Shown piece by piece: positions 45,493 to 49,502 of a stretch of 64,000 nt of DNA. Under the pieces are notes generated by a model, which worked only from the letters and a program-made list of their open reading frames with translations, did no database searches and was not told the origin of the DNA. Every line of letters starts with the position of its first letter. Position 1 is the stretch's first letter. Location: assembly GCF_900187945.1 (NCBI RefSeq), contig NZ_FYEH01000004.1, positions 248,001 through 312,000 of the forward strand, written 5' to 3'. Origin of the DNA: Arboricoccus pini. Its GTDB lineage: Bacteria; Pseudomonadota; Alphaproteobacteria; Geminicoccales; Geminicoccaceae. Position numbers and translations under genes: made by a program.

Positions 45493-46668
45493 TCAGTAGA
45501 CGCCGTTCAAGCCAGAATCTCTGGGTGCAACGTTAGCGGGATTGAGCCCGGTCCCCGGATGATCTGCAGTCGGGCGTTCCTCCTGAGCCTCGGCCACTTC
45601 CCCTGTCGATGTCGCCGACGCGTCCAAAGAAGGTTTGACACCGCCGGTAATCGCCACGGGCGGCCCCCACACCTGAACTGGGATGCCGCGACGCTGGACC
45701 AATTCGGCTTGCACGCGATCCCAGTCGATTTCGTCGATTACGTCGGAAGCTTTTGCCTCCAGCAATTTTCTGGCATCGGCCATGGGCGCAGTTTGGTCGG
45801 CCTTGAAGGTGTAGGTGTCTTCAAGCTGATTGAGCTGCTCGTAGGTTGGATGGACCTCGATGAACAGCCCTCCCTGTCGCCAGCCAGCCTTGATCGGCTG
45901 TTCGACCGTCGTCACCTTCGTGCCGATGGGCAAGACGTCGAACAGATGATGGGCGACAGCCGTGTAGAGACGAATACAACCACGACTGGCCAGCCGCCCT
46001 ACCCCATATTCCTGATTCGTGCTGTGAATGGCATAAGCGGGCCATCCGAGATACATGGCCCGATCACCCATCGGATTGTCTGGTCCGGGCGGCATGACCG
46101 CAGGTAACTCCGGATGGGCCTTCCGCTCATCGGCAGTCAGCGTCCAGGTGGGATCCTTTTTCTTTCTGGTGATCGTCGTACTGCCGTCTGGGGTACCGTG
46201 GCTCTCCCGGCCTATGCCAATCGCATGCGTCTCGATTGGTCCATCCTTCGGAAAATAATAAAGCCGCAATTCAGACTTGTTGACGACGATACTGCCGGGT
46301 GTTCTCGCCACCTGCGGCAAAAGATGGGCTGTTGGCAATAAAATAAGCTTGTCAGGACCCGGAACCCAGGCGTCGACGCCCTGATTAACTGCCGAGACTT
46401 CGAGGATACCGACGTCATACTCTTTCGCTAGAGCGAGCAACACTGTGTCGGCCGTCGTCGTAAAATAAGTGAGGTCGCCCAGCATGTCCCCATCACGGGC
46501 GGCCGTCGGCTTTGCCTGCGGGTTATCGGCCTTCTTGCCGTTGAGGGCAGCGGTGGCTCGGTCAGCTCCAGGCGGCGCTTTGGTCGCTGCCAGCACTGAT
46601 CCGTTGAAGATGTACTCAGCACCCGCAATAGTGCCGCAGATCGTCAAAAAGCTACGCCTGGTCGGCAT
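45493..46668 (-). CDS. L,D-transpeptidase (YkuD family) with LysM-like domain
   Basis: A 391-residue exported L,D-transpeptidase that cross-links peptidoglycan or attaches lipoproteins to it. The N terminus MPTRRSFLTICGTIAGA is a twin-arginine-type signal. A LysM-like peptidoglycan-binding stretch follows (LTYFTTTADTVLLALAKEYDV to about residue 115), then the YkuD domain with YAIHSTNQEYGVGRLASRGCIRLY, holding the catalytic His and Cys (SRGCIR). The C-terminal 50 residues are a Pro/Ala/Thr-rich tail. The ATG at 46668 has AAAGG seven bases upstream; a TTG seven codons earlier is in frame. It sits near an Lpp-like lipoprotein and a second transpeptidase. Confidence 0.93.
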   Translation of the reverse strand: MPTRRSFLTICGTIAGAEYIFNGSVLAATKAPPGADRATAALNGKKADNPQAKPTAARDGDMLGDLTYFTTTADTVLLALAKEYDVGILEVSAVNQGVDAWVPGPDKLILLPTAHLLPQVARTPGSIVVNKSELRLYYFPKDGPIETHAIGIGRESHGTPDGSTTITRKKKDPTWTLTADERKAHPELPAVMPPGPDNPMGDRAMYLGWPAYAIHSTNQEYGVGRLASRGCIRLYTAVAHHLFDVLPIGTKVTTVEQPIKAGWRQGGLFIEVHPTYEQLNQLEDTYTFKADQTAPMADARKLLEAKASDVIDEIDWDRVQAELVQRRGIPVQVWGPPVAITGGVKPSLDASATSTGEVAEAQEERPTADHPGTGLNPANVAPRDSGLNGVY

Positions 46669-47358
46669 CAGCTTGCCTTTCTTGACCAACTAGACCGTCC
46701 AGTGGGCGCTTCGATCGACCCACTCAAAATTTCATCCGCTCTCTATCGAGTGGACGGACCACCATCAATAAACATCGCGCGAACCGCTAGGTGCCAAGTT
46801 AACCGGATCGCGACGATCCATACGCTGATATCGCGTCTGCCCTGATATTTTCAGCCCCGCTTCAAGGCGAGGAAATTCACCAAGTCAATCCGCGTCGTCG
46901 GCAGACATGGAGACAGTGCAGCAACACCCATTCGTAATGGCCGACACGAGCGACGAAGCCCCTTCGAATGTCCAGCGAAAGACCCTCAACTGGCGGCCGA
47001 ATCTCACGCCCATGCCCAAGATCTATAGTCGATGGCAGAAATATTTACGACACAAGGAGTGGGCAGACATGCGAGGCCGTGAATAACGAACGTCCGCTTC
47101 ATTGTCAGGCAGGCGCTCGATCGACTGAACGGAACGTCCGACAAACTCTCGACGTAGGCGTCCCGACTATCGGGTGCGAGCTTGCCGGCTCCAAACATGC
47201 GCGTCGGAGGAACTAAGCCGCACGCGAACAAATCAACGCCGATGTTGCGAAAATCGCCGGCCGACCCTCTCGGGCAGACCGGCGATCCCGACCATGAGTT
47301 CGATCCACGAAATTAAGCGTCGATCAACAAATCGCCGCCTATTTCGCCACGATCAAAC
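46669..47358. other. 690-base interval between the first L,D-transpeptidase and the Lpp-like gene
   Basis: No conserved gene is recognisable. At 47253-47286, ATCGCCGGCC and GACCGGCGAT form a 10-pair stem (one wobble). Read on the minus strand it lies about 73 bases after the Lpp-like stop and is followed only by TTTCGC, so it may be a weak terminator. On plus, AAGGAG precedes the five-codon frame ATG-CGA-GGC-CGT-GAA at 47070-47087, with no evident target. The rest is unremarkable. Confidence 0.4.
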
Positions 47359-47592
47359 TTACTTGCGCAGACCAGAATTGAAGACGCGATCGACCTTCTG
47401 GTTAGCCAGTGCAGCGTCCTGGGCGGCACGCTGGGCGGTCGCCAGGGCTTCGGTGGCCTTCTGGTCGGCGGCCTGTGCCGTTGCGCGAACGCCAGCGATC
47501 TCGGACCGCACCGAGTCCTGGTCGCTGCTGCCCGAGCATGCCGCGAGCGCGAACAGCGGGGCGGCAACAGCGAAAGCGACTACCTTCTTCAT
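47359..47592 (-). CDS. Braun/OprI-like alanine-zipper lipoprotein
   Basis: A 77-residue lipoprotein precursor. Residues 1-18 are a signal peptide ending in the lipobox LAAC. The mature form of 59 residues starts CSGSSDQDSV, is an Ala-rich heptad coiled coil (SEIAGVRATAQAADQKATEA), and ends QDAALANQKVD...GLRK. E. coli Lpp is 58 residues, has DAARANQRLD near its end and finishes in Tyr-Arg-Lys. Pseudomonas OprI also ends in Arg-Lys. The C-terminal lysine is the residue that L,D-transpeptidases link to peptidoglycan. The ATG at 47592 has GGAG six bases upstream. The gene lies between two YkuD transpeptidase genes, which supports an outer-membrane tether role. Confidence 0.85.
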   Translation of the reverse strand: MKKVVAFAVAAPLFALAACSGSSDQDSVRSEIAGVRATAQAADQKATEALATAQRAAQDAALANQKVDRVFNSGLRK

Positions 47593-47768
47593 GGAAATCT
47601 CCAAACTAACCTAGGTCTAAAATGATCGGCCAAGGCTCGCCTCCCACAACCGCGCCCCCCCTATCAGTGGCCAATGGGCCGAAAGGGGACCGCCGCAGTG
47701 GAAGATGCTCCCTGGCGTCGAAGACAATTATAGGTCGCGCCTCGCCCAGGTGAAGACTGAGAGGCGCG

Positions 47769-48392
47769 TTATGCGCGTATCTCGATCGGTGTGCCCAAAC
47801 GGACACTGTCCCAAATCACGTCGATCTCCAAGTCTGTGACCGCGATGCAGCCTGTTGTCCAGTTGAACATCCAATGTACGCTGCGGTTTTCCGGCGCGAT
47901 GTTCGGATCCAAGCCATGAAGCATGATGTTGCTGCCCGGCCGCTGGCCCAAGGAAGCGGCCCGCACCCAGTCATTAGCATTGGGATAGGAAATATGGATA
48001 GATTTATAGAATTCACTGTGTGAATTGAACCGGTCGAGAAAATAGAGCCCCTCCGGCGTCTTTCCATCGCCGGCGACCCGCTTTGGTCCGGTATCGTTGC
48101 GACCCAGCGCAACACGGAACTCGTTCATTACCTTGTCGCCGCTTCGGAGCGCCAAGGTTCGCGCGTGCTTGGTCACCAGGATATTATCTACGCTCAGCAG
48201 CCGGACGACCGCTGGTTGAGCCAGTGAACGCTTTGCCGCGAGGGATGTTGCACTGAGAGCGACCGCTCCGGCACCCAGACGCAGGACGTCACCGACGATC
48301 TTTCGCCTCGGTCGACACGTGTCCGCCGGGAATTCTACATCTGAAACCGACGATTCGCGCTGCCCAATGCCGTCGTCCACGACACGCCTCAT
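47769..48392 (-). CDS. L,D-transpeptidase (YafK-type YkuD family)
   Basis: A 207-residue protein with the YafK-like variant of the YkuD catalytic domain. An N-terminal signal-like segment RPRRKIVGDVLRLGAGAVALS suggests export. The domain contains GDGKTPEGLYFLDRFN, SIHISYPNAND, IMLHGLDPN and the catalytic NWTTGCIAVTD (Thr-x-Gly-Cys). This subgroup includes enzymes that join or release proteins on peptidoglycan. It is distinct from the larger transpeptidase 1.1 kb away and lies 177 bases upstream of the Lpp-like gene on the same strand. The start is uncertain within the first 30 residues. Confidence 0.88.
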   Translation of the reverse strand: MRRVVDDGIGQRESSVSDVEFPADTCRPRRKIVGDVLRLGAGAVALSATSLAAKRSLAQPAVVRLLSVDNILVTKHARTLALRSGDKVMNEFRVALGRNDTGPKRVAGDGKTPEGLYFLDRFNSHSEFYKSIHISYPNANDWVRAASLGQRPGSNIMLHGLDPNIAPENRSVHWMFNWTTGCIAVTDLEIDVIWDSVRLGTPIEIRA

Positions 48393-49010: not shown

Positions 49011-49502
49011 ATGAAGGGCATCATAGGAAACCGGCTTATCATTTCAGCCCTCAACGAATCGCTGAAAGGCGAACTCACAGCGATCAACCAGTATTTTCTT
49101 CATGCTCGTATGCTGGATAATTGGGGCTTCCGCCGCTTCGGCAAGGCTGAGTACAAAGAGTCGATCGAGGAGATGCACCACGCCGATCGACTGATCCAAC
49201 GTATCCTCCTGCTCGAAGGCCTTCCGAACCTTCAAGATCTGGGCAAACTCTACATCGGCGAGAATATTCGCGAGGTAATCGAGTGCGATTATCGCCTTGA
49301 GATCGAAGGCATCGAGATCTACCGAAGGAACATCGAATTATGTGAGAGGGAAAAGGATTTCGTGACTCGAGATCTTTTTGTCGAAATTCTCGAAGATGAA
49401 GAAGAACATCAAGATCATTACAAGACAGAACTTGATCTTATCGACAAAATTGGGATCCAGAACTACGGTCAGTTGCAGATCGGCGAGGGTGAAGATCACT
49501 AG
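49011..49502 (+). CDS. bfr: Bacterioferritin
   Basis: A 163-residue iron-storage protein that forms a 24-mer with heme at two-fold interfaces. Ferroxidase ligands are present: Glu21 (LKGELTAINQY), Glu54 and His57 in SIEEMHHADR, and later ECDYRLEIEGIEIYR and EEEHQDHY. The heme-ligand methionine is Met55, aligned with E. coli Met52. The protein is slightly longer than the E. coli one (158) through an acidic tail. GAGGGAG precedes the ATG. An Irr-type palindrome lies in its promoter and an intrinsic terminator follows, so it is a single-gene, iron-regulated unit. Confidence 0.97.
   Translation: MKGIIGNRLIISALNESLKGELTAINQYFLHARMLDNWGFRRFGKAEYKESIEEMHHADRLIQRILLLEGLPNLQDLGKLYIGENIREVIECDYRLEIEGIEIYRRNIELCEREKDFVTRDLFVEILEDEEEHQDHYKTELDLIDKIGIQNYGQLQIGEGEDH

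Follow-up and report, generated by a model that had tools for sequence, protein, structure and literature searches.

A candidate OprI-type tether between the outer membrane and peptidoglycan in Arboricoccus pini and other Alphaproteobacteria

The 64,000-nucleotide stretch of DNA of Arboricoccus pini, a member of Geminicoccaceae, analyzed here (contig NZ_FYEH01000004.1, positions 248,001 to 312,000; hereafter the window) carries on its minus strand a gene for a short alanine-zipper lipoprotein, lpp, between the genes of two YkuD-domain enzymes, ldt1 and ldt2, of the L,D-transpeptidase (LDT) type. We propose, at a probability of roughly 0.86, that this locus specifies a Braun-type (OprI-type) covalent link of the outer membrane to the peptidoglycan, which is reversible via ldt2 and old in the class Alphaproteobacteria. 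The proposal is founded on the sequences and their motifs, on synteny, and on the joint presence or absence of the ligase-type enzyme and a lipoprotein ending in Lys. A preliminary description, made from the window alone, had read the locus as a true Lpp-like tether in this lineage: the tether itself is supported by what follows; however, it is OprI-type by profile and is not confined to the lineage.

Components of the system

The three genes are transcribed in the order ldt2 (48392-47769), lpp (47592-47359) and ldt1 (46668-45493):
47769..48392, minus strand: ldt2, DpaA/YafK-like YkuD enzyme, proposed detaching amidase; Cys codon at 47847-47849
47359..47592, minus strand: lpp (oprI-like), 77-amino-acid alanine-zipper lipoprotein, by translation and PF11839; Cys19 codon at 47536-47538, terminal Lys77 codon at 47362-47364
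45493..46668, minus strand: ldt1, ErfK/YbiS/YcfS-type L,D-transpeptidase, proposed lipoprotein ligase; Cys codon at 45976-45978

Coordinates, translation and Pfam matches bear out the earlier account of a lipoprotein of 59 mature residues, with the lipobox LAAC and a terminal LRK, between two YkuD enzymes. The translation runs MKKVV...ALAAC-SGSS...DAALANQKVDRVFNSGLRK up to the stop codon, the mature part extending from Cys19 to Lys77, and the product reads MKKVVAFAVAAPLFALAACSGSS...NQKVDRVFNSGLRK. The lipobox Cys is invariant in our alignments A1 and A2, the latter being the basis of a profile of 18 sequences that was fed by 15 short lipoproteins, all Lys-ended, from 25 earlier loci. The comparison with Lpp/OprI profiles suggested by the preliminary description gave a match above cut-off to PF11839 ('Alanine-zipper, major outer membrane lipoprotein'; 29.9 bits, Pfam cut-off 23.1), a match below cut-off to NF040598 (discussed below), and weak matches to four PDB chains that bear the name major outer membrane lipoprotein (E 0.16-0.84), with the OprI-like chain 9tz4 matched at E 0.16 up to the last residue. 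Weak scores of this kind are expected since the protein is so short. Its profile match makes lpp an OprI-type protein (PF11839) and not one of the E. coli Lpp type. Its mature length is 59 residues versus 66 in nearly all relatives from Geminicoccaceae, that is, 7 residues or one heptad shorter.

The likely start of ldt1 is MPTRRSFL, with a Tat-like signal (TRRSFL), the listed open reading frame (ORF) extending further to a TTG at 46689. Its YkuD domain (76.9 bits; Pfam cut-off 23.4) contains the catalytic motif SRGCIRL, of which Cys232 and Arg234 are invariant across 22 aligned sequences. It resembles the ErfK/YbiS/YcfS/YnhG enzymes across most of its length, with scores of 159, 144 and 134 bits against the NCBIfam models PRK10190, PRK10260 and LdtE, whose equivalog cut-offs (517, 583 and 480) are unmet: as judged from sequence, it belongs to the ErfK/YbiS/YcfS lineage and not to any named equivalog. 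Among solved structures it matches 9tyw (E 7.7e-51, residues 62-335) and 4lzh, a Klebsiella L,D-transpeptidase (E 4.6e-40, residues 78-333), and its predicted model recovers 4lzh in Foldseek (E 1.6e-24). The LysM-like domain ascribed to it in the preliminary description has no Pfam match at E<=1, while the model does have a beta-alpha-alpha-beta unit in that region (residues 68-112).

The YkuD domain of ldt2 (53.9 bits against the same cut-off) has the motif TTGCIAV, with Ala at Cys+2, where transpeptidases have Arg; across 22 aligned sequences Cys182 is invariant and Ala184 is present in at least 90%. Most DpaA-like enzymes have Ala or Asn at the position of this Arg, and the L,D-carboxypeptidases Csd6 and Pgp2, like DpaA, are without it (PMC8263019). 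We regard ldt2 as a likely hydrolase from its motif and fold matches. A search of the whole genome for YkuD domains found three genes, with the motifs SHGCIRL, SRGCIRL and TTGCIAV; the third enzyme, that with SHGCIRL, is long at its N-terminus, and we take it to be YcbB-like.

Conservation within Geminicoccaceae

Among 31 Geminicoccaceae genomes, the window lipoprotein is matched in 22, of which 21 (the window included) keep the order ldt2-lpp-ldt1 with a lipoprotein ending in LRK, so that the three-gene neighborhood sought in relatives is indeed there; a profile search added the lipoproteins of genomes G002 and G004, both ending in GLRK. An ErfK-type enzyme is present in 23/31 genomes, all 23 of which have an LRK-ending lipoprotein, adjacent to the enzyme in 22. 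In the other eight the enzyme was not found at E <= 1e-20, two of these genomes being 70-74% complete. The only short zipper found among these eight, in G003 (locus L138, G003:C1:1414117-1414308), ends in LRQ, and no LDT match lies in the 12 kb around it; weak hits of the A2 profile in frames of 245-399 amino acids and in one of 56 amino acids were left out of this reading of the enzyme-less genomes. All 23 genomes with the enzyme, and none of the eight without it, thus have a Lys-ended lipoprotein (Fisher p 1.3e-7, uncorrected for relatedness).

Conservation of the terminal Lys had been set beforehand as a point on which the tether should stand or fall, and the tether was not refuted by it: Lys is the last residue in 23/23 lipoproteins from Geminicoccaceae genomes with the ErfK-type enzyme and in 28/28 intact LDT-linked ones read elsewhere in the class sample. 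A chance neighborhood was rejected on the gene order kept in 21/21 loci and on the background, in which 0/19 lipoprotein-like short ORFs in 313 kb have a terminal Lys; the lipoprotein finder used for this background recovers 26/28 known cases, and a stricter version of it served in the enzyme-first search described below.

Distribution across Alphaproteobacteria

The A2 profile matched 58 of 387 genomes drawn from across the class. Thirty-nine of these were read at the match, 5 from Geminicoccaceae and 34 from outside it. Among the remaining 19, an earlier reading had covered the match in G205, G242 and G363, the ErfK locus was read in G242 and G392, and the rest were left out. The 35 loci read comprise the 34 outside the family and that of G003, each taken with flanks of up to 6 kb. 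An LDT is present in 29, and the 28 lipoprotein genes that are intact there all encode a terminal Lys on spacers of differing length. The six loci without an LDT in the stretch are L121 (at a contig end), L128, L137, L138 (G003), L139 (without lipobox) and L140 (with stops). Two further lipoproteins were left out of the counts: L071 (G363), which is Lys/Glu-rich, ends in KKK and has no LDT match nearby, and L076, which ends in KKK and has no lipobox. An lpp-like gene beside LDT genes (L123:6001-6270, G172) has an in-frame stop, which may reflect decay, a sequencing error or a frameshift, and is not counted with the 28.

Taken from the side of the enzyme (140 bits or more with ldt1 as query), an ErfK-type gene is present in 46/387 genomes from 22 families. 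In 42 of these genomes we found an intact lipoprotein with a terminal Lys, which is a zipper in 38 and of the short type treated in the next section in 4. The lipoprotein gene lies within ~1 kb of ldt1 in 41 of the 42 (with ldt2 between them in G208); in G116 its neighbor is ldt2, and the ErfK gene is at another place. No such lipoprotein accompanies the enzyme in G037, G045, G172 (the in-frame stop) and G413 (lipoprotein gene truncated at a contig end). In the class-wide Fisher test the figure of 0 of 341 for enzyme-less genomes means that none was seen, the genomes having not been exhaustively read, and relatedness is ignored. While the A2 and PF11839 profiles favor Lys-ended proteins, the enzyme-first test does not: at 12 ErfK loci without an A2 hit, 9 have a Lys-terminal lipoprotein nearby (two of the nine had weak PF11839 hits earlier), and among the other three those of G413 and G037 are at contig ends.

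Across the lineages read, the zipper lipoproteins have 52-87 mature residues and, outside the terminal Lys, diverge to 25-61% identity. Named carriers are the Geminicoccaceae, a Parvibaculum sp. and plasmids of Azospirillum brasilense. The Parvibaculum lipoprotein (L047) ends in SLRK, and its dismissal as noise was rejected since both enzymes lie beside it. The A. brasilense gene adjoins an LDT gene on large plasmids, and its product carries the NCBI name 'alanine-zipper protein'.

A short proline-rich variant

In one family with genomes of ~2 Mb (here f122), the lipoprotein near the ErfK-type enzyme is Pro-rich, has ~40-50 mature residues and contains no zipper. Most of these proteins have a YAxxRT-like stretch, and their C-terminus is F-x-x-x-Q-x-K or similar. 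The short lipoprotein is found in 75/80 genomes of the family (E <= 0.01); at the loci read (L249-L278, e.g. L249:1501-1707) 30/30 end in Lys, and a match to ldt1 lies within 1.5 kb in 25/30. Five of these proteins were tested against Pfam and NCBIfam, and their only hits were at the level of the signal peptide; the short lipoproteins are an undescribed family. They are probably unstructured; if so, a flexible leash takes the place of a rigid strut. We lean, with some reserve, towards a Braun-type tether that has long belonged to the alphaproteobacterial envelope, with a fixed core of ErfK-type ligase and C-terminal Lys and an exchangeable spacer, be it a zipper or the Pro-rich segment of f122.

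Phylogeny of the ErfK-type enzymes

A FastTree phylogeny of 107 ErfK-type enzymes with midpoint root, in which f122 is represented by 12 chosen loci, splits 79 alphaproteobacterial sequences from 28 of other classes (supports 0.94 and 0.67). Since the alphaproteobacterial enzymes form one group in this tree, the system would have an early origin in the class, although most of the sampled genomes lack the pair. A recent transfer from another class was rejected in view of the class-wide presence and the 79/28 split. At the 28 other-class loci, which are the best by enzyme score, a Lys-terminal lipoprotein lies within 1.5 kb in 13; in five of these the lipoprotein beside the ErfK-type enzyme is OprI of the Pseudomonas type, by likeness to 9tz4.

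Proposed mechanism and alternative explanations

The lipoprotein would be lipidated at Cys19 and placed in the inner leaflet of the outer membrane, its mature part probably forming an alanine-zipper coiled coil. ldt1, as an enzyme of the ErfK/YcfS type, would then join the C-terminal Lys to the meso-diaminopimelate of a peptidoglycan stem, and ldt2, as one of the DpaA type with Ala at Cys+2, would hydrolyze the same bond, thereby making the link reversible. The dedicated ligase and YafK-type cleaving enzyme envisaged in the preliminary description are in keeping with the motifs at the active sites and with the matches by fold, with the proviso that ldt2 could also be a carboxypeptidase.

Several observations speak against this proposal or parts of it. 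The match of lpp to NF040598, the NCBIfam model for alanine-zipper lipoproteins of the Lpp/OprI family, covers the entire profile (1-90 of 90) at 35.2 bits, below the cut-off of 43, and because of this lpp is filed under PF11839 only. The periodicity of Ala at 3.5 residues in lpp is not significant (p 0.15), and neither Ala periodicity nor lipoprotein lengths modulo 7 have a clear excess. The enzyme and lipoprotein genes of G004 sit on separate contigs, and in the tree the G002 and G004 enzymes fall with those of f122, apart from the other Geminicoccaceae; hence, descent within the class is not simply vertical. G045 has an ErfK-type enzyme with no Lys-terminal lipoprotein found near it, and no lipoprotein was seen near five second ErfK-type copies (L185-L189; there are six in all, and the partial one of G172 was left out). 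The A. brasilense plasmid copies (L212:2645-2908, L213:2546-2809) end in RKTRS, TRS following the Lys. Finally, the reaction cannot be read from membership of the ErfK lineage by itself, since this lineage comprises, besides Lpp ligases, the cross-linker YnhG/LdtE (PMC10434034).

This last point, together with the 134 bits of ldt1 against LdtE, would favor a reading in which the lipoprotein is a free outer-membrane spacer, ldt1 makes 3-3 cross-links like E. coli LdtE, and the neighborhood is a regulatory convenience. Such a reading, however, leaves unexplained why LDT-linked lipoproteins, the A. brasilense plasmids excepted, keep the Lys end despite their divergence, and it accounts neither for the Gln end in the enzyme-less G003 nor for the Lys with which the non-zipper lipoproteins close near an ErfK-type enzyme; moreover, the genome has the separate SHGCIRL enzyme besides ldt1. 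We therefore hold it to be very improbable. A somewhat less remote alternative, still unlikely in our estimate, is that N-terminally tethered beta-barrel proteins, as in Brucella, form the main link, with the lipoprotein contributing little or only under some conditions: such links have been described for Alphaproteobacteria (cited in PMC8263019), but of only three YkuD genes found in the genome two sit at the lipoprotein.

The reaction of ldt2 is the part of the covalent tether for which an alternative has the most weight, although we still consider it on the unlikely side: ldt2 could be an L,D-carboxypeptidase of the Csd6/Pgp2 type that trims tetrapeptides and no lipoprotein-releasing amidase, which would leave the rest of the proposal unaffected. 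In a Foldseek search with the ldt2 model the five top rows are chains of Bd1075, DpaA (E 4.0e-9), Csd6 and Pgp2, and in VIA-align Csd6 (Z 18.0), B. subtilis YkuD (16.9) and Pgp2 (16.7) stand well above DpaA (13.3, rank 49), which many mycobacterial transpeptidases also outrank. Likewise, the score of ldt2 against NF040599, the DpaA equivalog, is 38.9 bits, far under the cut-off of 365, and for this reason we describe ldt2 as possibly working like DpaA and do not file it as DpaA. Against this, the closest solved structure to ldt2 by sequence is 8ikr, titled DpaA, and ldt2 adjoins lpp in 21/21 Geminicoccaceae loci and shares a stretch with it in 9 other loci. The preference for an amidase over a carboxypeptidase rests on this neighborhood.

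Transcription signals and neighboring genes

Two candidate signals flank lpp:
47727..47754, minus strand: sigma-70-like promoter TTCACC-16-TATAAT, between ldt2 and lpp, from a consensus scan
47250..47287, minus strand: terminator-like hairpin with a short U run, downstream of lpp; -31 kcal/mol for the 60-base stretch
The -10 TATAAT and the strong hairpin suggest that lpp has a transcript of its own, with the scans themselves being near chance: the promoter consensus was found twice versus 1.1 expected in shuffles, which is weak, and the hairpin was missed by the terminator scan, whose criterion is five T in eight bases.

Beyond these, the second gene upstream of ldt2 (49011-49502, plus strand) encodes a ferritin-domain protein (PF00210, 127.7 bits), presumably bacterioferritin-like. 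On the minus strand, a 773-amino-acid ORF at 41737-44058 matches the mitochondrial-fission ELM1 domain (PF06258, 82 bits) with its second half; its first half matches nothing in Pfam.

Comparison with known systems

Lpp homologues have been reported absent from most Alphaproteobacteria (PMC10470522). One survey was a count of PF04728 that did not include the OprI-type PF11839 (PMC8263019), and another covered Lpp length in Gammaproteobacteria (PMC8824477). Our searches of the open-licence literature found no report of an Lpp/OprI tether in Alphaproteobacteria; subscription papers may hold earlier ones. The kind of tether is itself already known as OprI-type; what is unexpected is that it occurs in this class, that enzyme and Lys are lost together, and that a short-leash variant exists. 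If the proposal holds, part of the 'DpaA without Lpp' puzzle is answered and relatives that can be cultured offer a test of the anchor. A simple genetic prediction comes from the way enzyme and terminal Lys occur together, with a Gln end where the enzyme is missing.

Within the class, the nearest comparison is DalA (RSP_1200) of Rhodobacter sphaeroides, an outer-membrane lipoprotein which, like the window lpp, is found near LDTs: the downstream RSP_1201 is a predicted LDT, and DalA co-precipitates the LDT RSP_1199. It differs from the window lipoprotein in its size of ~18 kDa and in binding peptidoglycan non-covalently (PMC10470522). The same study reports a Tri-Lys-Arg muropeptide, with no protein assigned to it, at 4.3%; its level falls to 1.1% without DalA but does not fall with copper (4.9%). 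Under our proposal this muropeptide becomes worth tracing to a gene.

Further afield, ldt2 has the YkuD fold in common with DpaA (8ikr), Csd6, Pgp2 and Bd1075 (7o21), from all of which it differs in being only ~20-30% identical, and it lies below the DpaA equivalog cut-off. The E. coli system of Lpp, LdtA/B/C and DpaA (PMC8263019) is alike in its Arg-Lys-ended lipoprotein, ErfK-type ligases and amidase without the active-site Arg; it differs in that E. coli Lpp is counted under PF04728, whereas the window lipoprotein belongs to PF11839, and in having three ligases, whereas one ErfK-type gene was found here. In Pseudomonas aeruginosa, deletion of the ErfK-lineage LdtPae2 abolishes anchoring of OprI, which has an Arg-Lys end, and LdtPae3, an SXGChA enzyme, is the proposed OprI releaser (PMC10434034). 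The OprI/LdtPae2/LdtPae3 system differs from that of the window in its class, in a mature lipoprotein of 64 rather than 59 residues and in that the window cluster includes the DpaA-like gene. The two are alike in a zipper ending in Arg-Lys with an ErfK-lineage neighbor and in three YkuD proteins per genome, whose roles in P. aeruginosa are cross-linker, OprI ligase and putative releaser; if our proposal is correct, one reversible anchor chemistry links both classes.

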